A DNA stretch of 64,000 nucleotides. Source: Vitis vinifera (Eukaryota; Streptophyta; Magnoliopsida; Vitales; Vitaceae). Numbering within the stretch: the stretch's first letter is position 1; every line of letters starts with the position of its first letter. Below the pieces are notes generated by a model that searched no databases, was not told the origin of the DNA, and saw only the letters and a list, made by a program, of their open reading frames with translations. This document shows positions 7,371 through 62,557 of this stretch, one piece after another. The stretch lies in NCBI RefSeq assembly GCF_030704535.1, contig NC_081812.1:15597001-15661000 (forward strand). Reading direction: 5' to 3'. A program made the translations under genes and the position numbers.

Positions 7371-7845
<475 letters not shown>

Positions 7846-29011: not shown

Positions 29012-32000
29012 TCAAAAGAGAGAACCCCATCCTCCACCTCCCGGAGTTAAAATCCGAAGAATTTCCCCTGCCTGTACCGCCACAGTGTTTTTACCTCCGA
29101 GATACACTTCTCGTTTATCTTTTGTAATGAGGTAATTAGCTCCACGAGCCCCATCTTTTCCTCCCTTCAACCCTCTTGGTGCATGAACACGCCTCTCTGA
29201 AAGAATGCTCACCACAACTGGTCGCCTAAACTCAATCTCCCTCACAAGCCCATCACCACCTCGGTGAAGCCCTGCTCCTCCGCTGTTCTCTCTCAATCCA
29301 AACGTATGCAAAATGACTGGATATCTCTGCTCAAAGATTTCTGGGTCAGTCATTCGGGTATTGGTCATATGGCATTGGACCCCACTGGTGCCATCCCAGC
29401 TGGGACCAGCGCCACAACCACCTCCTATTGTTTCATAATAACCAAAAGTATCATCCCCAAAAGTGAGATTATTCATGCAACCCTGTGAACAGGCACAGGC
29501 CTGAAATGCAGTCAGTACAACATCAGTAACTCTCTGGGATGTGAGAACATTACCTCCCACCACAGCAGCCTTATCACTTGGAGAGAGGAATGAACCTAGG
29601 GGAATATGGATTTTAACTGGAGCCAAACAACCTTGATTGAGAGGGATATCAACATCAACCAAACATCGGATGCAGTATATGACTGCAGCAGCTGTGACTG
29701 CTTCTGGTGCATTCCAGTTCCCGTAAACTTCTGGACTGGTCCCAGAAAAATCAAAATTTGCTTCCCCTTTATGAGGATCGATGGTAAGTTTCAGATGAAT
29801 AACAGAACCATCATCCATGTAATCCTCTTCTTCAATGGTTACAGAATCTCCTGCTCCAAATTTAGGTGACTGAGATGTAACCCTAGCAGCAACTGACTTG
29901 AGCATTTCTCTCACTGCTCCTTCTGCATTGATTTGCACGTAGGTCATGTAGGCCTGAACAGTGTCCAAACCATACTGCTCAATAAGCTCTTTGATAAGGG
30001 TAATTCCTCTCCGGTTTGCAGCCACCTGTGCTTGAAGATCTGATAAATTATCTTGAAGCCTGCGAGTTCCTGGGATGTTATGAGCTGATTCATCAGAATT
30101 AGGGAACTGGAGAAGTTTGATGATTCCTTCTTCTTGAAAAATTCCCTTGTCCACAAGCTTGAATGCTTTTATGGCAGCACCTTCTTCCCATATGGACTTC
30201 GAGAAGGGAGGCATACTTCCAGGAGTGATACCCCCAATCTCTGCATGATGACCTCTACTTGCCACAAAAAATACCAGTTTCCCATTATTGAAAACAGGTG
30301 TGACAACAGTTATATCTGGAAGATGACTACCTCCAGCACAAGGATGATTTGTGACCAAAACATCACCTTCATTCAAATTGTTACCCCAGTACTTCAGCTG
30401 CCATCGAACTGTACTGGACATAGCTCCTAGATGCACAGGTACATGGGGGGCATTGGCAACCAGCCCACCATCTGGTCCAAAGAGAGCACAAGAGAAATCA
30501 AGCCGCTCCTTGATATTGGTTGATATAGAAGTTCTCTGAAGAGTCCGTCCCATCTGCTCAGCTATTCCCATAAATCTGTGATTGAAGATTGAGAGCTGCA
30601 CCACGTCTGCAACTTTTTCTGCTACCTTCACAGTGCCTAAATTCGACTGAATTTCAATTTTAATGTTGCCATATTTGGTTATTACTGCTTTACAATTGGG
30701 TTCTACTATCACAGTACTATTTCCATTCATGATGATGGCAGGACCAGGCATGACATGCCCGTACCCTAAATTTTCAAGCTTGAATAGGGGTGTATGGTGC
30801 CATCCATTCACAAAGTAAACCTTGTAGTGGCCTTCAACTTTAGGTGTACCTGAAGCAGGTTCTAGGGCCCTCGGCTTCAAAATATTAGTGACTCCTATAC
30901 CACGAACTCTTACATCACAAATTAGGATATTCCTGTTCTGCAGTTTGAATCCATACTCTTGCTGGAATAGCTTGACAAATTCAATAGCGTAGTCACATCC
31001 TACCCCATCTTCATTTAATTGTCTCTTTACCATGATGGCAGTATCTGTACCCTCATACCTCAAATTTAAATATGTTTCAGTTGTAATGTTTTCCTCTCTA
31101 AACCCTTGCATTTGCAGTTTTTGTCTCACCAGCTTTACTAAAATCACTTCTCTTCGAGTAGCCTCCAGGAGAGATTCAGGACCATAAACAGCAGAGTACG
31201 GTTCCTGAGCTTCTTCGATGACATCTGCCAATCCCATCCCATATGCACTTAAGATCCCACAGAACCTGTGAATTAGAACCTCTTTCATACCCAGAGACCT
31301 TGCAATGGCACAGGCATGCTGTGGCCCAGCACCACCAAAACAAGCAAGGGCATGGTTCCTTGTCTCATGGCCCTTCATCTCCGTTAACTGTCGTATTGGA
31401 CGGCACATTGTTTCATTAGCAACATTCACAAACCCCAGAGCAATTTCCTCCACCATCATGTCCTTTGCTGAAGGATCCTGGCTCTTCCTATAGGAGTTTA
31501 TTTGTTTTGCAAGCTTCTCGAATTCTTCCCTTGTTGCCTTGACATCTAAAGGCTGGTCCTCGTTGGGTCCAAATATTGATGGGAAATAATCAGGAATAAC
31601 AAATCCTAGAATCAGATTCGCATCCGTAACTGCCAACTCCCCTCCTTTTCGGTAACACACAGGACCTGGGTGTGCACCAACTGATTCTGGTCCCACCCGG
31701 AAAGCTCCAAATTGGAACTTTAATTTTGATCCACCGCCAGCAGCAACGGTGTTTATGTCAAGCTGAGGTGCCTGAATTATGGCACCAGCAATCTGGGTTT
31801 CTAGAACTTGTTCATAACTTCCTGCATAACGGCTTACATCTGTAGATGTACCACCCATGTCAAACCCAATGAGAGGCTTTTCTGTTTCAAGCCCAAAAAG
31901 AGTCTGTGAATAACCAACAACCCCACCTGCAGGACCAGACAAAACTGCTTTGTGGCCTGAAAATCTACTTTCTGGTGCAAGTCCTCCATCTGACTGCATG

Positions 32001-32821
32001 AACAAAACATTCACCTTTCCCAGCCCTTCATCAAATCTGGATATGAACCCTGACAAATACTCTTTAATAACAGGGGTCAGGTATGCATCCACACTAGCTG
32101 TTAAACCCCGAGGAACAGCTCGAACCATAGGAGACAAAGCTGAAGATAAGGAAACATGCTTAAAACCCAAACTCACAGCTAACTTTTCTACTGATATTTC
32201 GTGCTCTGGGTAAGTGTAGGAATGCATTAATACAACTGCTAGACAGTTAATCCCTTTCTCCAATAGACCTTTCAGTAAAGGCTTTAGAGCTTCTTCATTG
32301 AGTGGCTTCACAACCCTGAGAAGCTCACCTGAAACCCCTTTAACTAATGATGCAGAAGAATCCTGGTTTTCTTCCTCCGTATTAGGAACAAGCTCAATTC
32401 TCTCTTCAACCTCGATAACCTCCTCATAGAGATTAGATGGTTTTGATACAGTGAGGTCAAAGATGCGAGGGCGAGCCTGGTTACCAATTTGCAGCAGATC
32501 CTTGAAACCCTGAGTCACACACAGTGCAATCCTCTCCCCTTTTCTCTCTAAAAGTGCATTTGTTGCCACCGTGGTACCCATCCTTATCCATTCTATCCTG
32601 TCTGTTGGGATTTTTGAAGTCCGGGGAATGCTCTCCCCTGTAAATTCTTCAAGAATCCTTCGAATTCCTTCAATTGGAGCATCATCATAGTTTGAGGGGT
32701 CAACAGACAAAAGTTTCATAACACGGCCATCAGACTGCCCTGGTATTTCAGCATAAACATCAGTGAAGGTGCCCCCTCTGTCAATACAAAATCTGAGTTT
32801 CTCTTGGTTCACACCATCCAT
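29012..32821 (-). CDS. OXP1: 5-oxoprolinase (ATP-hydrolysing)
   Basis: Cytosolic 5-oxoprolinase (EC 3.5.2.9), which hydrolyses 5-oxoproline to glutamate with ATP in glutathione recycling. The single-exon frame gives 1269 residues, close to the 1266 of Arabidopsis OXP1, which is also intronless. The N-terminal HyuA-like half begins [15 protein letters not shown] (the ATP-binding loop, residues 11-25) and has [16 protein letters not shown] and [17 protein letters not shown]. The C-terminal HyuB-like half has [40 protein letters not shown] and the Gly-rich end GGGGWGSLF. No stop or frameshift interrupts it. A 5' UTR intron is possible (donor after 33757, acceptor before 32836 on the minus strand), but this is weakly supported. 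Confidence 0.98.
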
Positions 32822-34450
32822 ATCTATCCTCGGATCCTTAGATCAAAATCTTATGCCAGTCCTTAATTTCAAGAAGCAGCTACTGCTTTTGTTAAGAAGT
32901 GATCCAGATCTAGAGGCCTGGACAAAGAAACAAAAAATCAATTTCCATAATCTAAGGGCATAATGACCCAATATCGTGTATTTAGTATAGATAGGGCATG
33001 CAATCCATGGTAGAAAGTGGGTCAGCATTTGGTTGTACAGAATTGAATTTTATTTGGAATTTCCATTTTTACGGACTTGGAAAATATTGAATTCCTTTTG
33101 TGGATTTGGGCTGTATGGGATTTGACACAATTTCAAATCCGTTGGTTTACAGATAAACCAAATAGTGGAATTAAAATGGAGGCCTTCAATTCCAGATCCT
33201 AAATCCCATCAAAACAAGTGCAACCTCAGTGCCCATAAATACTATTCATTCTTAAAAAAAAAAAAAAAATACATATCAAAAGATGGTCCTGGAGTCAGCC
33301 TAAGTAAATCAATATCCACAAGAATGACGAAATGGGAACCGAAACGTTTGTCCAAGAATCAACTCTTCCCCTACAACAAATGAAGAACACCCTAAAATAA
33401 ACTTCAACAAATTATTAGGGCTTATGGCCATTTCAATGCAAATCCAAACTGATAGCTCAACAATAAGATCACACAGAAACAAACACTCAAAATAATTAAT
33501 TAAACTACAAAAACAGCATAAGCACACAGTTGCTAAACTTCATATGCTCGAATTCAGTAAATTTACATACGAACCGTACAAACCACCGATCATAAAACGT
33601 TGAAGAGCATACCCTGGATTGAACAATCTATATTTTTCCAGTAGAGAGATGCATGTGAATAAAGCTGGAAACCTGATAGGATTTGAGTTTTGACTAAACA
33701 AGAGTGATTTTCAGTAATTGTGGGCACCGATGGAAATGATAAGGAACTCAGTGAACCTGGACGAGATGTGCGATGGTGTGGGAGTTTATGTGAGGCAAAA
33801 GCGTTGAGGCAGAGTCTACGGGGGCGCCGCCGATTCGCTGGTGTTTGCTTTATCGTCTAACTTATATATTTACAAATAATTTAATATTTATATAAAAGAG
33901 AAAAAATAATTGAAATAAGTTTTTAAAATATAAATAAAAATTATTTACTAATTATTTTAATTTTTTTTTATATTTCCTTTTGTTTTTTCTCACTATTTTC
34001 CATTCTTCGATAACTATGATTGAGATACTAATTATTTTCCATCACAATTTGAGGAACCCATTCTCAAATTTAACGAATCAAAATTTGAAAATAAATTGCC
34101 TCAAATATAATAGAATATTTATTATGTGACTAATATTTTTTATTAATAAAAAATAAATTAAATAAATATCAATTTTATAAATAAAAGGATATTTTATCTA
34201 AAAAATTTGTAATAAATTCAAGAAATAAGTTTCATTGTATGCTCAATAGTCTAACATTTTCCTCTTAACAATCATATGTATCCAATAAAATAGATCAAAT
34301 TTATATGTATAATAAAATAAATAGAAAATTTGTTCTTAAAATAAATTTAATTAAATAACATCATAAAAGAAAAATACCACAAATTTTAATAAATGAATTT
34401 TATCTCTATAATGATAAATAAATATAAAAGTTCATTTCCTACAACTAACC
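32822..34450. other. 5-oxoprolinase leader and upstream region
   Basis: Leader and promoter of the 5-oxoprolinase gene lie in the first kilobase. A GC-rich patch near 33815-33835 stands out from the AT-rich surroundings and may mark the transcription start side. Beyond about 33860 the sequence is AT-rich with no gene. A poly(A) run lies at about 33256-33270. Confidence 0.5.
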
Positions 34451-52993: not shown

Positions 52994-55032
52994 CGCCTCG
53001 TAAACCCTAGGGTTTTTTTTCTTTCCCGGTTCTCACTTCTCAGACAACCCTTACCAAAAATTGGGGGGAAACCCTAAAATAGAAATCTATTTTAAAAGAA
53101 AAACAACAGTGTGGATCTGAAACTACAGCATCGAAACAATGGCTTCCATTTCGCCTTTATATTTATAACTTGTTTCCTAAAAAAATATATAATAATTATT
53201 ATTATTATAATTATTATGACGTATCATTGGAGTTATGCTCTGAGGGTAGGGTTTGGTGAGAAGGAGCTTGAGAAGATGTTTATGCGTGGGGTTTTGGAAT
53301 CTTGAGAGTCTTCTACCATTCAAAGTTTACAGTCTCGGTAGAAGCAAGAAAGGTACCATCGTAAACAGAGGCAACCTCTCCTCCTTTCGCCTTGATTCCC
53401 TACATCTCAGCCTACTCATCTGAACTGCAGATGGTGGGACCGTTTATCGGCCGTTGTCAGTTGCTTTGATTCTATTTTCCTTATTTGCTTATTTATTATA
53501 TGTCTTCTTGGATTTTTTCGATGAAGATAATCTAATTTTATTATTATTTAAATGAAAAATAATGCTGACGCGATCCGAAAATTGTAAGAACACCTTTGTT
53601 AAATTTTGGTTTGTGATGTACAAATATTATAATTGTTTTGAAACTTATGCCTCACGTTTTAGGTTTATTAGAAGAGCAATAAGTTTTCATGAGGATGTCT
53701 TAAAAATTTTGGGATTTAACATTTTTATATTTTAATTATTTTTTTATTTTTTATATTTAATTTTTTGGAATTTTTTTATAAATAATTATATAAATATAAG
53801 GAATGGTTGAAAATAAAATATTATACATAAAAATAAATTTTTAAATATTTGAAAGTATAAAAAATATATTAAAAATATACCAAATTCTTAAAAATATTAA
53901 AAATTGTTATCAAAACGCATTTCTTTAAAAAATATTTTCAAAATCATTCCCCAGCACTAACATTTATTTTCCATTCTAAAGAGTTCCTTGAGTGTTTATA
54001 AGTATGTTTGGGTGACTTGGTCATCTGGTTGCAAATATTGTTATCGCATAATAAAAGATGTTGTCATTTTTCATCTACAAACTTTATACAAAATATATTA
54101 TGTATGTATGAGGAAAAAAAAAATTATGATATAATTAAATGTACGTATACATTTATTTGACTTTATGATATTGTGTTTTAATAATTTAAATCATGTCAAA
54201 TCTACGTCTATTTTAGATTTAAAATGATATTTTAATATTTTTAAATTATTAAATTATAACACACTATTTAATTAAAAAATAATTATCACCATTAGTTTAA
54301 AGATGATCATGTTACAAAAGAATACATTAAAACAATATTTATGTATTATCCATAAAATAGATAAAATATTCAAATAATTGTCTATAACTTTAAAAATATT
54401 TATATAAAAAATAGCTTTTATATATACATATATAGTAGATAAAAAAGAATAATAATATTTTTTAAGGAGTTTACAAAATATTTATTATATATTTTGTAAG
54501 TTTGAAAAAAAAAATTATATAAGGTGTTTAAAAAATATTTACTTAAAAAATGTAATAATAATCATTTTTAACCATTCATTTATAATATTCAATTTATCAA
54601 ACATTGTTTTTGAGAGAAAAATAATTGGTGGAAATAGTGAGCTCCCTAACTATGAATTAATTTACATGATCTTGCCAATTAACATGTGAGAATAAGGTAA
54701 GATGAATGAAAAGAGAGATAGTGAGAAAGAGAAAAATGAGAAAGAAGTGGGAAATTGGTTGTTTTTTTTATTTCTTTTTTACTGTCAAAAGCATTTCATA
54801 AATTTTTAAAAGTTAATGTCTTTCAATTCAATTTTCACTCGTTTATTAAGTTTTAGACTCGATTATAATGGATGTGAAGATTTTGGGCCAATTTTCAAAC
54901 CCAATATAAATTACAATTCTCCCATAAATTAAAGATTAACTTCAAAACAAGATCTAAAAGATTAGCAGAGAATACCTCCAAAGCCACGACAACTTTGCAT
55001 CATCTTAAACAAGGTATTGGCTAAGTTGGAGT
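52994..55032. other. Intergenic between the CUE gene and the Copia element
   Basis: The first few hundred bases hold the CUE promoter and leader: telo-box AAACCCTAGGGTTT at 53002-53015 and an ATT-repeat at about 53188-53215. Beyond 53.5 kb the DNA is AT-rich and I can assign nothing. Confidence 0.55.
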
Positions 55033-55657
55033 TGTTAGATTAATTTTTGTAATTAATCTATAATTTGGGCCACACATGTAAATAATTAAAATGTGTGTGC
55101 TATCATTTAATTAAGCCTAAATATAGTAATCTAATTAATAATTGATTAATTGGCTTAAGGGTATAATTGTCATGAGATTATTGTGTAGATACCATTAGAC
55201 AATTATTATTTCTATGAGGGGCAGAAATATAATTGTGATAAAATTAAAACTGCTCTAGCGGTTTATAAATAGGGTTATGGTCCCCATTCTACGACTACGC
55301 ATTCCAATTTCTGAAAATCCTCTCAGAGAGAAATTGACACAGAATCTAGTGGTTAGAATTGGAAGACCATCTCAAAGGGTTTTCTTCCTATAAGGTTTCT
55401 CCTTCAATGGATTCAGGTATGCTTCCGCTATTATTTTTTTTACTCATTGTTTTTAATCAAGAGATTCCAGTATATATGAAATTAGGGTATTCTCCTTGTT
55501 AAATATTCCAGTATATATGAAGTTAGGGTATTCACCTTATTAAATATTCCAGTATATATGAAGTTAGGGTATTCACCTTGCTAAATATTCCAGTATATAT
55601 AAATTAGGGTATTTATCTTGGTTGAGTTATAACAATGATCTTGGTTGGATTCTAACA
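55033..55657 (+). repeat. Copia 5' LTR
   Basis: TATAAATA at 55264-55271 is the probable promoter, placing transcription start near 55295. Four tandem copies of a 41-bp unit (about 55464-55626) occupy the 3' third. An ATG at 55407 is followed after ten bases by a consensus-like splice donor GTATGC. Confidence 0.95.
55464..55626 (+). repeat. 41-bp tandem repeat in the Copia LTR, four copies
   Basis: The unit begins ATTCCAGTATATATGAA and contains TTAGGGTATTC. The copies start at 55464, 55505, 55546 and 55587; the last is diverged at its end. The same array is in the 3' LTR at 61190-61352. Confidence 0.93.
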
Positions 55658-55659
55658 AG

Positions 55660-55672
55660 TGGTATCAGAGCC
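55660..55672 (+). other. Copia primer-binding site (initiator tRNA-Met)
   Basis: TGGTATCAGAGCC begins two bases after the 5' LTR and is the standard plant Copia site complementary to the 3' end of initiator tRNA-Met. Confidence 0.93.
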
Positions 55673-56212
55673 TACTCCTTGATTAATTCTTTGAGTTATT
55701 ATTTTTAATATATGTCAATGGATTAAGATTTATGAAATATTGAGTTGATAAATTTTTTATTTATTTATTACTATTATTATTATTATTATTTAATAGCATT
55801 TTATGATATTAATATTTAAGTTATTGATCTAGCATTTTAAATAGGTTAATTAAAGCGGAAAATCACCAAAGTGACATCTTCCGTGTAGATTAGTCTGTTC
55901 GGGGTGTTAGATATTTGTGTGTATGTGATTCATGCGGGTATTGACTGGCCCAAAAGAAAGTTAATATTTGGTCAAATTGCATACATACTTGTGGTGATAA
56001 ATATGTGATGATTATAAATGTAACTTAATGTGAATAATAAATCAATCCAAAGATAGATTTATTATTTGACATAACTTATCATCAATGTTTGATCACTACA
56101 ACAAGAGTACCACTTACAGTTAATATTACTGTCCAAAGACTTGATATTAATGTTGTGCTAGGTATCTTGAAATGTCATAATTTGCTTTTAAATTTAAAGA
56201 TTATGTGTTTAA

Positions 56213-59200
56213 TTGCTTATTTTATGTGAGCATGATGGTTTATTTGATTCATTTTATTTTGTTCTCGATTCAGCTTTTATATCAACTACTTCTATATCTG
56301 CCAACATCAATAATGTCCCTATGTTAAATGGGACTAATTTTAAGGACTGGAAAGAGAATATGATGATTCTCTTAGGCTGCATGGATATAGACTTGGCCTT
56401 GAGAATGCCCAAACCTGATGAACTCAATGAGCAAAGTACTCAAGAGGATGAGGTTTATTGGGGTAAGTGGGAACGTTCAAATAGGCTAAGTCTTATGATC
56501 ATGAAGCGCGGCATTCCAGAAGCTTTCAGGGGTGCGGTAACCGATGAGGTTACTAATGCCAGTGACTTCCTTGCGGAAATTCAGAAACGTTTTGCCAAAA
56601 ACGATAAGGCTGAAACGAGCACGCTTTTAGCAAGCTTGATTTCAATGAAGTATAAAGGCAAAGGTAATGTTCGGGAGTACATCATGGAGATGTCTCATCT
56701 TGCTTCAAAACTTAAGGCTTTGAAACTCGAGTTATCTGATGATTTACTCGTGCATTTGGTTCTCATCTCTCTTCCTACACAATTTAATCAATTCAAGGTC
56801 AGTTATAACTGTCAAAAGGATAAATGGACTCTTAATGAACTCATTTCATTTTGTGTGCAAAAGGAAGAGAGATTGAAGCAAGACAAGACCGAAAGTGCTC
56901 ATCTGGCTAGCACTTCTAAGGATAAGGGCAAACGAAAGAATAAGGATAATAAGGTTACTGCTTCTAATGGTTCAGAACAAAAGAAACAGAAAGTTGAGGT
57001 AACATGTTTCTTCTGTAATAAGCCTAGACATACTAAGAAGGAATGTACCAAGTATGCTGCTTGGCGTGTTAAGAAAGGTATGTTTCTTACTTTGGTCTGT
57101 TCTGATGTTAATTTAGCTTCAGTATCTAGAAACACATGGTGGTTAGATTCTGGTGCTACTACTCACATTTGTGTTTCTATGCAGGGTTGCCTGAGTTACC
57201 GAAAACCAAGTGATGCTAAAAGATGCATCTATGTCAGAGACGGTCAGTCGGTAGAAGTAGAGGCAATACGGCACTTTAGATTATTATTGAAATCTGGTTA
57301 TTTTTTGGATTTAATAGATACTTTTATTGTACCGTCTTTCAGACGGAATTTAATTTTAGTTTCTGTTTTGGACAAATCAGGTTATTGTTGTTCATTTGGA
57401 AACAATAAATTTACATTATCTATTAATTCAAATGTTGTAGGAACCGGTTTACTTAATGTTTATGATAATCTATATTTGTTGGAAACTGTTCCGTCCTATA
57501 ATGAAACCTTGCATGTGGAAACACGAGGTACAAAATGTAAATTGAATAAAGATAATTTGGCCTCATTGTGGCACAAACGCCTAGGTCATATCTCTAAATC
57601 TAGAGTTGAGCGACTTGTGTCCGATGGGATTTTGGATTCACTTAACTTTTCAGATTTTGATATTTGTGTTGAGTGTATTAAAGGAAAACAGACCAAAACA
57701 AAGAAATTAGGTGCCAATAGAGCTACAGACGTCTTAGAATTAATTCATACAGATATCTGTGGACCATACCCTACGGCATCTTGGAATGGTCAACAGTACT
57801 TTATAACATTCATAGATGACTACTCAAGATATGGCTACCTATTTCTTATACATGAGAAATCACAATCATTGGACGTGTTCAAAACATTTAAAGCAGAAGT
57901 TGAGTTACAACTCAACAAAAGAATAAAGAGCGTCAGATCTGACCGTGGTGGTGAATACTATGGTAGATATGACGGATCAGGTGAACAACATCCAGGACCA
58001 TTTGCTAAATACCTAGAGGAATGTGGGATCGTCCCTCAATACACCATGCCAGGATCACCTAGCATGAATGGTGTAGCAGAAAGACGAAACCTAACCCTTA
58101 AGGACATGGTAAGGAGTATGATTAGTCATTCTACTTTACCCGAAAAACTCTGGGGTGAAGCACTCAAAACGGCAGTTTATATCCTCAATCGGGTGCCAAC
58201 TAAAGCGGCTGCTAAAACGCCTTATGAGCTTTGGACGGGTCGAAAGCCCAGTTTAAAGCATTTTCATATTTGGGGATGTCCAGCTGAAGCGAGACCTTAT
58301 AAGCCTCATGAAAAGAAATTGGACTCTAAAACAGTTAGCAGCTACTTTATTGGCTATGCAGAGCGATCAAGGGGTTTTAAATTTTATGATCCTGCTATTA
58401 GGTCAATTTTTGAGACGGGAACTGCAACATTTTTTGAGGATGTTGAGTTTGGGGGGAGAAATCAGGCTAGGAATATTGTCTTTGAGGAGGAAGAGGGATC
58501 TACTATTGCTTTTGATAATGTACAGGTTTCACTACCTATCATTGATCAAGAAGTAAATTTGGATCCTCAACCAACAGACAATATTGTTCAACCCTTAATT
58601 GCAAATGAGGACATTGCTCCTGAAGAACAAACTCAACAACCTCAAGAAAATATGCCATTAAGGAGATCCACTAGAGAGAGGAGAAATGCAATTTCGGACG
58701 ATTATATCGTATATCTCCAGGAACGTGAGGTAGAAAGTGGAATGATGGAAGATGATCCAATCAACTTCCAGCAAGCCATGAAAAGTTCCAACTCTCAGAA
58801 ATGGATTGAAGCCATGAATGAAGAGTATAAATCTATGCAAGACAATAAAGTTTGGGAACTTGTCCCATTACCAGTTGGTACGAAACCCATTGGTTGTAAA
58901 TGGATATTTAAAACCAAACGGGATTCAAATGGTAATGTAGAAAGATATAAAGCACGTCTTGTAGCTAAAGGCTTTACTCAAAAAGAAGGAATTGACTTCA
59001 AAGAGACCTTCTCTCCAGTTTCTACGAAGGACTCTTTCAGGATAATCATGGCACTAGTTGCACATTATGATCTTGAGTTACATCAAATGGATGTTAAAAC
59101 AGCGTTTCTCAATGGTGACATTGATGAAACAATTTATATGGTACAACTAGAAAATTTTGTGTCCGAAGACTCAAAGAATATGGTTTGTAAATTGACTAAA

Positions 59201-60337
59201 TCCATTTATGGGCTCAAGCAAGCTTCTCGTCAGTGGTACTTCAAGTTTCATCAAATTATTGTCTCATATGGTTTTGAGGCAAATCTTATGGATGAATGTG
59301 TGTATCACAAATTCAGTGGGAGTAAGTATATTTTCCTGGTTTTATATGTCGATGACATATTGCTAGCCACAAATGATATTAGCATATTGCACGACACCAA
59401 GAGATTTTTATCAAAACATTTTGAGATGAAAGATCTTGGTGATGCCTCCTTTGTCTTAGGAATCCAGATACACCGAGATCGTTCTAGGTGTATTTTAGGA
59501 TTGTCACAAATGACCTATATTGATAAAGTCCTCCAAAGGTATGACATGCAAAATAGCAAACCAGGTGATACCCCTGTCGCTAAAGGAGACAAATTCAGTC
59601 TTAATCAATGCCCTAAAAATAGTTTAGAAAGTCAAGAAATGCAGAAGATTCCTTACGCTTCGGCTGTGGGGAGTCTAATGTATGCTCAGGTATGTACACG
59701 TCCGGATATTGCGTACATTGTTGGCATGTTAGGCAGATATCTAAGTAACCCTGGAATGGATCATTGGAGAGCAGCCAAGAGGGTTATGAGATATTTACAG
59801 AGAACAAAAGAGTACATGCTTACATATAGGAGATTGGATCAGTTAGAGTTGATTGGGTATTCCGACTCCGACTTTGCTGGATGCCAAGACAGCAGAAGAT
59901 CCACATCAGGCTATATTTATTTGTTGGCTGGTGGAGCAATTTCATGGAGGTCTGCCAAACAGACACTCGTAACTTCATCCACCATGGAAGCAGAGTTTGT
60001 AGCATGTTATGAGGCATCCAATCAAGGAATATGGCTACGAAATTTTGTCACTGGGCTGCGTGTTCTGGATGGTATTGAAAGACCACTGAAGATATTTTGT
60101 GACAATAAATCAGCAGTTTTATATTCCAATAACAACAGGAGTTCTACAAAATCAAAATACATTGATATCAAGTTCCTTGTTGTAAAAGAAAAGGTACAGA
60201 GTGGACAGATATCCATAGAGCATATTGGAACAAACTCCATGATAGCGGATCCGCTTACAAAGGGATTACCACCCAAGGTCTTTCATGAGCACACTGCTCA
60301 TATGGGTGTTGTCTCATTTGAGGATATCCAAATTTAG
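56213..60337 (+). CDS. Copia gag-pol polyprotein
   Basis: One open frame, stop TAG at 60335-60337. Numbering codons from 56213: Gag core ([14 protein letters not shown] from 37), CCHC zinc knuckle C265/C268/H273/C278, protease DSGA from D312, pre-integrase LWHKRLGH, integrase catalytic D514, D577 and E623, reverse transcriptase with YVDD at 1045-1048, RNase H with YSDSDFAG and SSTMEAEF, and the C-terminal [10 protein letters not shown]. Order protease-integrase-RT-RNase H defines Copia. Codon 56213 is TTG, not ATG; the first in-frame ATG is 56321, already inside the conserved Gag core. The more likely start is the ATG at 55407 in the LTR, joined by an intron 55417-56273 (GT-AG, in phase), giving 1357 codons plus the stop. 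That splice is inferred. Confidence 0.93.
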
Positions 60338-60742
60338 TGGGAGTTTGTATTATTCATTGTATATTGCTCTATGTTATGTTTAGACTTTATCTATACATTT
60401 GGATTGTGTTCTGCAGAAATAAAGTATTCATTTTATTGCACTCTGTTAAATTATGCTAAAGATTTGATCTCAATAAAGTTAAGTTGGACCAGTTGGAAAT
60501 AGGCATGAATAGATCACATTGCATGTAATTTCCATGCTATGCACTCATGATTGATCTATGTCATTTAGCTGTGCAGATATATGTGACCATTGATTGGTCT
60601 AGTAACGATTGATGTAACAAAGGCCACCTTGATCCTATGTCAGTATAGTTAATGGACGAGATTGTTCGGATATACCCTAAGGACATGATAGCAAATTTTG
60701 AGCTCATAAGGTTAAGCACATTTATTTGATTACATATGCATG

Positions 60743-60757
60743 TGGGCCAGTGGGAGA
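60743..60757 (+). other. Copia polypurine tract
   Basis: Purine-rich GTGGGAGA just before the 3' LTR, the expected plus-strand primer position. It is less pure than usual because of an upstream CC. Confidence 0.7.
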
Positions 60758-60758
60758 T

Positions 60759-61383
60759 TGTTAGATTAATTTTTGTAATTAATCTATAATTTGGGCCACA
60801 CATGTAAATAATTAAAATGTGTATGCTATCATTTAATTAAGCCTAAATATAGTGATCTAATTAATAATTGATTAATTGGCTTAAGGGTATAATTGTCATG
60901 AGATTATTGTGTAGATACCATTAGACAATTATTATTTCTATGAGGGGCAGAAATATAATTGTGATAAAATTAAAACTGCCCTAGCGGTTTATAAATAGGG
61001 TTATGGTCCCCATTCTACGACTACGCATTCCAATTTCTGAAAATCCTCTCAGAGAGAAATTGACACAGAATCTAGTGGCTAGAATTGGAAGACCATCTCA
61101 AAGGGTTTTCTTCCTATAAGGTTTCTCCTTCAATGGATTCAGGTATGCTTCCGCTATTATTTTTTTTACTCATTGTTTTTAATCAGGAGATTCCAGTATA
61201 TATGAAATTAGGGTATTCTCCTTATTAAATATTCCAGTATATATGAAGTTAGGGTATTCACCTTATTAAATATTCCAGTATATATGAAGTTAGGGTATTC
61301 ACCTTGCTAAATATTCCAGTATATATAAATTAGGGTATTTATCTTGGTTGAGTTATAACAAGGATCTTGGTTGGATTCTAACA
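60759..61383 (+). repeat. Copia 3' LTR
   Basis: Same length as the 5' LTR, with about seven differences, mostly transitions. The TATA box (60990-60997), the ATG with splice donor (61133-61144) and the 41-bp array (61190-61352) are all kept. Confidence 0.95.
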
Positions 61384-61388
61384 GGAGT

Positions 61389-62484
61389 AGCACCTATACA
61401 AAATTTCGCAATAAGACTACATGGTAGAAGGCATCTCTAGAGCCCATCTATAAAAGAGAGCCTACGCATAAAAGATGTTTTACCAATTGTAGAATCATAA
61501 TAACGAAAGGTTTCTTCTATTATTTTATTTTAATCTCACTACAAATCCTATCACATCACATTTATTTTAATTATAACAAATGTCCAAAATTGTTTTTTTA
61601 ATATATATATATATATATATATATGTATAAGTGTTGTATAAAAAATAATATTGATTCGTTTAATCATTATAAAATTAGAATGTCATGCCGCGTTAATTAA
61701 TTTTGATTATTTAAATTTGTGGAGGATCTTATTATGTGATTTATAATGTGTAAAGGACTAGTAACTGATGTTGAGGACATAAAAGCTCCGTTATCACTTA
61801 TTTTGTTATTTATAATATTTTTTATTATATAGTAAAAAAATTATTACACATTCATGGATGTACATATAATTGATCATTAAAACCTCATATATTATTATAT
61901 AAATTATTTTATTTTTGTATTATTGAAATATTCTTACACATTCGTAGATGTGCGTATAATTGATTAAACCATATTAAAAACTCGTATATCATCGTGTTGA
62001 TTATTATTGAATTAACATTGTTCATATTAAAGTTTTCGTTGACTCAATAAATTAGTATTACAACTTCTGATACATAATAACGAAAAATAAAATAAAATAA
62101 AACATAGAAAACAAATTATGTATGCAATTCAGAACCTTCAAAACTGCACAAACTCTCCCAACTCAAGTTAAATCTCAACAAATTTTATGTTAATTAAGAG
62201 AAAATATATTTTAACATTTTGAACTAAGATTTTCATTCACTTTTAAATAATTTTAAGTCATTTAAAAAAAATCGTTTTGCAAAAAAAAAATTGTATATTT
62301 TTTGCTATTATTTAATTTATATGTATCAACAGTGCATTTAATTTTTAATTATGTCAATTAATGAATTTTCAATGCCCAAATAACAATTCTGTATGTCGAT
62401 ATACCTGATTATTGATATATATTAATTATGATGTCTTCGAAGATCTCTGTTAATATTTATCTTTTTCTCGATTTAAGCTCAAAT
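61389..62484. other. Intergenic between Copia element and tRNA
   Basis: AT-rich with an (AT)n microsatellite at about 61603-61624. No gene or further element with clear ends. CAA at 62480-62482, three to five bases before the tRNA, matches the plant tRNA transcription-start motif. Confidence 0.5.
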
Positions 62485-62556
62485 GTGGCTGTAGTTTAGT
62501 GGTAAGAATTCCACGTTGTGGCCGTGGAGACCTGGGCTCGAATCCCAGCAGCCACA
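62485..62556 (+). tRNA. tRNA-His (GTG)
   Basis: Complete cloverleaf of 72 bases. The acceptor stem GTGGCTG pairs with CAGCCAC, with discriminator A at 62556. The D arm contains box A (TAGTTTAGTGG). The anticodon stem CCACG/CGTGG holds loop TTGTGGC with anticodon GTG at 62518-62520. The T stem CTGGG/CCCAG holds loop CTCGAAT (box B). There is no intron and no encoded CCA, as usual for a nuclear gene. A TTTT terminator follows at 62558-62561. The extra G at position -1 would be added after transcription. Confidence 0.97.
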
Positions 62557-62557
62557 G

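Follow-up and report, generated by a model that had tools for sequence, protein, structure and literature searches.

The 64,000-nucleotide (nt) stretch of Vitis vinifera DNA analyzed here (contig NC_081812.1, positions 15,597,001 to 15,661,000, referred to as the window) contains an intact Ty1/copia retrotransposon at 55033-61383 on the plus strand. Its gag-pol frame appears to obtain its start codon from the 5' long terminal repeat (LTR) by splicing of a leader intron. With a probability of roughly 0.8, we consider that the LTR start codon is joined to gag-pol by removal of this intron (intron 1) and that a set of RNAs is derived from one LTR promoter through two introns. The unspliced RNA would keep the primer-binding site (PBS) and the structured leader and would serve as the genome. 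It would be essentially untranslatable because 23 further AUGs are located between its first AUG and the first AUG of gag itself. Removal of intron 1 (55417-56273) would join the LTR AUG (M-D-S-A...) to gag-pol and yield a Gag-Pol mRNA, which could not be reverse-transcribed in the normal way since the PBS is lost with the intron. If intron 2 (57078-57184) is removed as well, the protease active site would be lost and the frame shifted, resulting in a Gag-only product. The leader-splicing interpretation was proposed in an earlier note made from the letters of the stretch (the sequence-only reading). It is supported here, as the splice signals are the best ones of the leader, are in phase and recur in the family, from which we infer that intron 1 is probably removed in vivo.

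The gag-pol frame is open from 56213 to 60337 (1374 codons), and 24 AUGs precede its first in-frame AUG at 56321: one at 55407, 22 between the donor and the acceptor, and one at 56313 in exon 2. Therefore, gag would hardly be reachable for scanning ribosomes on the unspliced RNA. Between the expected transcription start site (TSS; near 55296, as predicted from the TATAAA at 55264) and 55407, the sequence is free of ATGs. The AUG at 55407, inside the LTR, is thus predicted to be the first one after the TATA box and hence of the RNA. It opens ATGGATTCAG (55407-55416), the start of a short leader open reading frame (ORF) that has the donor GTATGC at 55417 inside it. The corresponding acceptor AG is located at 56272-56273, giving a distance of 857 nt. 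The donor is in phase 1 and matches exon 2, whose first base (56274) takes the second codon position in the frame that opens at 56213; this frame has no upstream AUG of its own. The coordinates, the intron length and the in-phase join given by the sequence-only reading were all reproduced, and the 41-bp repeats, the PBS and the ATG-rich leader with its 22 ATGs, which it expected to be taken out, are located inside the intron.

The donor has the top score among the 60 GTs in 55296-56320, and the acceptor has the top score among the 40 AGs scored between about 55441 and 56330. The splice-site score depends on the weights chosen, and a plain consensus count was run as an alternative that is less dependent on them. 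For the first AUG, there are four in-phase splice solutions, the best with a score of 10.6 and the next with 0.8. Using weighted scores, this solution was matched in 0/4000 and then in 1/3000 dinucleotide shuffles, and in 2/2586 real segments, which were taken from elsewhere in the window, overlap each other and include any true introns present there. The plain count was matched in 5/3000 shuffles and 5/2586 segments. If any AUG was allowed, the weighted scores were matched in 1 and 3 of 2000, in 10/3000 shuffles and in 5/2586 segments. Further properties are consistent with an intron: branch-point-like motifs are found 18 to 50 nt ahead of its end, its U content is 42% compared with 31% and 30% in the flanks, and a break in the four-letter composition has a support range (55368-55436) that includes the donor.

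Other copies of the family were searched for in the same genome (495.6 Mb, 21 contigs), which yielded at least 51 match rows, from 40 of the 130 candidates scored. Outside the window, 38 places were scored; 26 of them were fetched, and the remaining 12 are 3' mates of these. Seventeen of the 26 LTR stretches run on into leader and gag, and 16 of these 17 were included in the alignment used for length classes. The sequence-only reading had suggested checking the ATG, the donor and the acceptor in related copies. The LTR ATG is kept in 25/26 stretches (the LTR-only stretch L030 has ACG), the donor GTATGC in 26/26, and the acceptor AG/C in 17/17 copies running into gag. The bases ahead of the donor read GATTTAG in L016, and those at the acceptor read AATTCAG in L018. 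It had also been pointed out that both LTRs of the element keep the motif. This is correct, as the 16-mer spanning ATG and donor is identical in the 3' LTR, but it says little, since the two LTRs differ at only 7/625 sites; the 26 other LTR stretches are more informative. Because donor and ATG are also present in the 3' LTR, U1 binding could not by itself distinguish the two LTRs.

No in-frame ATG is present ahead of exon 2 in 15/17 other copies, and the absent gag start is therefore the rule in the family and not a defect of one copy. The length of intron 1 ranges from 822 to 922 nt over the 17 copies, and all three classes modulo 3 occur among the 16 aligned ones. In the 15/17 copies that retain intron 2, the stretch 56274-57077 is 804 nt long; it reads 802 in the two copies without intron 2, where the aligner moved two bases across the gap. 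None of the 12 PBS columns varies in 17 rows, and many indels between copies are found in 55423-55657, which covers the 41-bp U5 repeats. The gag changes across these young copies (25 synonymous, 30 non-synonymous and 6 stop) show no clear coding constraint. Since the copies are young, conservation across them is a weak argument by itself. No substitution is found among the 17 rows in the 73 nt at 56171-56243, ahead of the acceptor; the rest of the leader differs in this respect. In L034, there are two matches to exon 1 and donor about 1.6 kb apart, possibly representing a short element with two LTRs. Scans of viral contigs and other genome contigs revealed no confirmed relative outside the host genome. 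Three pattern matches in genome contigs (L001-L003) were rejected as relatives, as they are bacterial by title and L001 has no match to the element.

The second intron is located at the gag/protease border. Its donor AAG/GTATGT at 57078 and acceptor TATGCAG/G at 57185 form the top-scoring pair of the entire frame for spacings of 70-200 nt. It starts 31 nt past the zinc knuckle and contains the LDSG motif of the protease, and its 107 nt equal 2 modulo 3. Its removal therefore deletes the protease DSG and shifts the frame, with 9 residues followed by a stop at 57211. The U content is 43%, compared with 23-25% in the 52-nt flanks. A U-rich GT-AG intron at this border with a frameshift to an early stop is the type found in barley BARE1 and in Arabidopsis EVADE (EVD, labeled ATCOPIA93).

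Intron 2 is exactly absent in 2/17 other copies, L022 and L025, in which AAGAAAG is joined to GGTTGCC, and it has a length of 107 nt in 14 of the other 15 and of 106 nt in L020. L022 has two LTRs and a perfect target site duplication (TSD), GGAAG, on both sides, as seen at its ends, the middle of the element lying outside the fetched sequence. Due to this combination, L022 is regarded as an integrated copy of spliced RNA. For L025, a 3' LTR was not found within the 1.4 kb inspected. The clean absence of intron 2 from both copies, one of them with LTRs and TSD, shows its removal in vivo. When leader and gag are considered together, L022 and L025 lie closest to copies that bear the intron (L019 and L023), pointing to separate losses in the two. 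With gag alone, the nearest neighbor of L025 is L022, at a weakly supported node, and the losses may also stem from one shared event. Both copies still have intron 1, as would be required if copying depends on the PBS within it. Another strong donor-like site, CAG/GTATGT, is found at 59690, late in the pol frame.

The leader part of intron 1 contains strong hairpins. Four abutting hairpins at 55825-56170 have a folding energy of -112.7 kcal/mol and a z-score of -8.6 on the sense strand versus -2.6 on the other strand; over the 17 aligned rows, the z-scores of the region range from -7.3 to -14.7 (25 shuffles each). This strand bias points to a function of the RNA, most simply in packaging or dimerization of the genome RNA; alternatively, the hairpins may control splicing. 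The single hairpins (z-scores between -3.2 and -5.8) stand out without being unique, since 5% of 104 background windows of 90 nt reach -3 or lower. Among 2077 cells examined for covariation, 28 pairs are kept by a one-side change, 27 are broken and none shows two-side changes, and the variable columns amount to 17/260 paired and 8/86 unpaired ones. Rfam gave no match at gathering score in 55000-61500. The gag coding stretch 56380-56499 also folds unusually well (z -4.7).

By phase arithmetic, splicing would add an LTR-encoded N-terminus to Gag. The sequence-only reading had placed the first in-frame ATG (56321) already inside the Gag core. The position was correct, but the residue lies at the edge of the core, just ahead of a weak match to DUF4219 at residue 38 (E 0.079, below the Pfam cut-off), and the significant Pfam gag match starts at residue 83, well past it. 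Because Met56321 precedes the motif matched by DUF4219, a start there would cost only the N-terminal arm of Gag. Gag is related to the capsid of Copia, as the Copia capsid chain 8vvw ('Copia VLP protein') could be aligned with it from element residue 35 onwards (E-value 2.2e-5). Ahead of the aligned part, the chain has 7 residues, possibly including a tag, and the predicted spliced Gag has 17.

A first alternative is that ribosomes start gag-pol internally on the unspliced RNA (shunting over the hairpins, an internal ribosome entry site or a near-cognate start), at AUG 56321 or just upstream, with the splice signals being accidental. The strong sense-strand hairpins and the retention of the entire significant Pfam gag match would fit such a route, and plant pararetroviruses are known to use a ribosome shunt across a hairpin in the leader, according to the available text of PMC5902531. 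Nevertheless, we regard it as improbable: six AUGs (56172, 56203, 56224, 56232, 56235, 56313) are located between the end of the last hairpin (56169) and 56321, the only in-frame near-cognates before 56321 are TTG 56213, ATT 56219, ATA 56279, ATA 56294 and ATC 56306, and no reason is offered for the in-phase position of the best donor and acceptor.

There are several points that count against the splicing of intron 1 or the two-intron scheme as a whole. If any AUG is allowed, plain counts reach the observed score in 80/3000 shuffles and 35/2586 segments. The donor GTATGC is imperfect, and a break in T content alone has a range (55345-55397) that ends 20 nt short of the donor, on its upstream side. 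The ATG-donor block is variable in 1/16 columns versus 15/111 just upstream and is not clearly more conserved. The 7-mer GATTCAG stands ahead of both the donor (55410-55416) and the acceptor (56267-56273), so that the match may partly have another history; a jump of reverse transcriptase between the two copies can mimic the intron 1 junction. Two of the 17 copies have an in-frame ATG ahead of exon 2, L017 (codon 56264, ATGGATTCAGCT) and L032, in which two upstream ATGs that are otherwise out of frame come into frame through an indel in the leader. A genomic copy without intron 1 was found in 0/17, although the query, consisting mostly of intron 1 sequence, would disfavor such a copy. For intron 2, synonymous shuffles reach the score of its pair in 12/1000 cases within gag-protease and in 58/1000 anywhere in the frame.

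A second alternative is that the family lost its gag start and moves in trans on the Gag of other elements, with the LTR ATG and donor being coincidental. BARE2 lacks a gag start and is yet packaged by BARE1, according to the available text of PMC3735527, and among the 16 aligned copies, six distinct codon changes create stops in gag, so that several copies are decayed. We judge this still less probable than an internal start, as the copy in the window keeps its 1374 codons open together with the domains, gag is open to 57077 in 12/17 other copies, and the controls with shuffles and real segments speak against coincidence. The least probable alternative, in which an ordinary ATG at codon 56264 directly ahead of gag was ancestral and the LTR version arose later by duplication or template switch at GATTCAG, draws on the presence of this 7-mer at both 55410 and 56267 and on codon 56264 being ATG in L017, CTG in L015, L020, L021 and L025, and TTG in L032, but this codon is not ATG in 16/17 other copies or in the window, L017 is nested among CTG copies on a tree with several weakly supported nodes, so that its ATG looks derived, and an ancestral ATG accounts for the origin and not for the present expression of copies without it.

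In the arrangement favored here, the start codon precedes the donor, and the intron contains the PBS together with the structured leader. For this reason, we lean towards the view that intron 1 is obligatory and the fate of the RNA all-or-none, with no RNA acting both as Gag-Pol mRNA and as template for reverse transcription. Intron 1 would then be shielded from loss by retrocopying, whereas loss of intron 2 is seen, and a single LTR donor would control the proportion of genome RNA to mRNA. How one transcript of an LTR retrotransposon serves as both mRNA and genome is an open general question. Genomic copies that have lost intron 2 but so far not intron 1 represent a natural test of the all-or-none logic. 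For annotation, the gag start of such families would be missed by readings confined to the ORF between the LTRs.

The classification of the element is based on several features. LTRs with TG...CA ends are accompanied by a 5-bp TSD and a PBS of the initiator-Met type, TGGTATCAGAGC, which we take to match initiator tRNA-Met. A single frame encodes gag, integrase and then reverse transcriptase in the copia order, with the Pfam domains Retrotran_gag_2, GAG-pre-integrase, rve and RVT_2. The seven LTR differences correspond to a divergence of 1.1%, which implies a recent insertion, about 0.4 million years ago at a substitution rate of 1.3e-8 per site per year. Elsewhere in the window, a tRNA-His gene is found at 62484-62557 (+), and the long frames at 7371-7757 (-) and 29012-32842 (-) presumably resemble histone H4 and 5-oxoprolinase.

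Features of the retrotransposon and their positions in the window
Feature	Position	Strand	Remarks
TSD GGAGT, left copy	55028-55032	.	identical 5 bp at 61384-61388
5' LTR, TGTTAG...CTAACA	55033-55657	+	
TATAAATA box	55264-55271	+	TATAAA at 55264; predicted TSS near 55296
Exon 1, coding part ATGGATTCAG	55407-55416	+	predicted first AUG of the RNA
Intron 1 (proposed), 857 nt, GTATGC...GATTCAG	55417-56273	+	putative; holds repeats, PBS and hairpins
41-bp tandem repeats in U5, about four copies	55464-55626	+	right end approximate
PBS TGGTATCAGAGC	55660-55671	+	starts two bases past the LTR
Four consecutive RNA hairpins A-D	55825-56170	+ (sense)	within intron 1
Exon 2, gag-pol frame	56274-60337	+	stop 60335-60337
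Gag zinc knuckle CX2CX4HX4C	57005-57046	+	
Intron 2, 107 nt, AAG/GTATGT...TATGCAG/G	57078-57184	+	
Protease active site LDSG	57143-57154	+	
3' LTR	60759-61383	+	carries the same ATGGATTCAGGTATGC at 61133
TSD GGAGT, right copy	61384-61388	.	

The proposed arrangement shares single features with several known systems. In yeast Ty1, the gag (TYA) start codon is also located in the 5' LTR, but it is read straight through without an intron. Rice tungro bacilliform virus differs in being a pararetrovirus whose leader is not an LTR, and its spliced product is a distal ORF and not gag-pol. Its likeness is that splicing fuses a short leader ORF to this distal ORF, ORF IV, and thereby enables its translation, as described in the available text of PMC5902531. 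In EVD, alternative splicing removes the protease and generates a Gag-only mRNA (shGAG), as removal of both introns would do here, and the unspliced RNA is mostly nuclear. However, the EVD intron is located at gag-pol and coupled to premature polyadenylation, and the available parts of PMC12786077 and PMC8892269 describe no start codon in the LTR. Spliced Gag RNAs were also found by nanopore sequencing for triticale Ty1/copia elements (GAG-RNAs) and for sunflower Tyran/Varan, including a short sunflower isoform with two introns, but no intron is placed across LTR or PBS in the available text of PMC7765848 and PMC7730604. For grapevine itself, the accessible part of PMC2576258 covers ten copia families, whose canonical elements measure 4,086-5,519 bp and have LTRs of 147-502 bp; no family among them matches the size of this element. 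A leader intron is not mentioned in the available text of a transcriptome paper (PMC9097378). Among the literature matches listed, titles and abstract openings contained no copia gag start in an LTR joined by a leader intron.

A close counterpart is BARE1, which the sequence-only reading had cited for the balance between two RNAs. This comparison fits intron 2 better than the leader; intron 2 was absent from that reading and is the element's own counterpart of the BARE1 intron. Both elements belong to Ty1/copia and have a short U-rich GT-AG intron just past gag that causes a frameshift to an early stop, with 104 nt in BARE1 and 107 nt here. In BARE1, this gag intron is facultative, and separate RNA pools are used for translation and replication (PMC3735527, available text). 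The gag start of BARE1 follows a leader between LTR and gag, and no leader intron supplying an AUG is described in that text. As far as the available texts describe them, the known plant cases use an intron past gag that tunes Gag versus Pol, whereas the leader intron proposed here would decide between translation and replication altogether.

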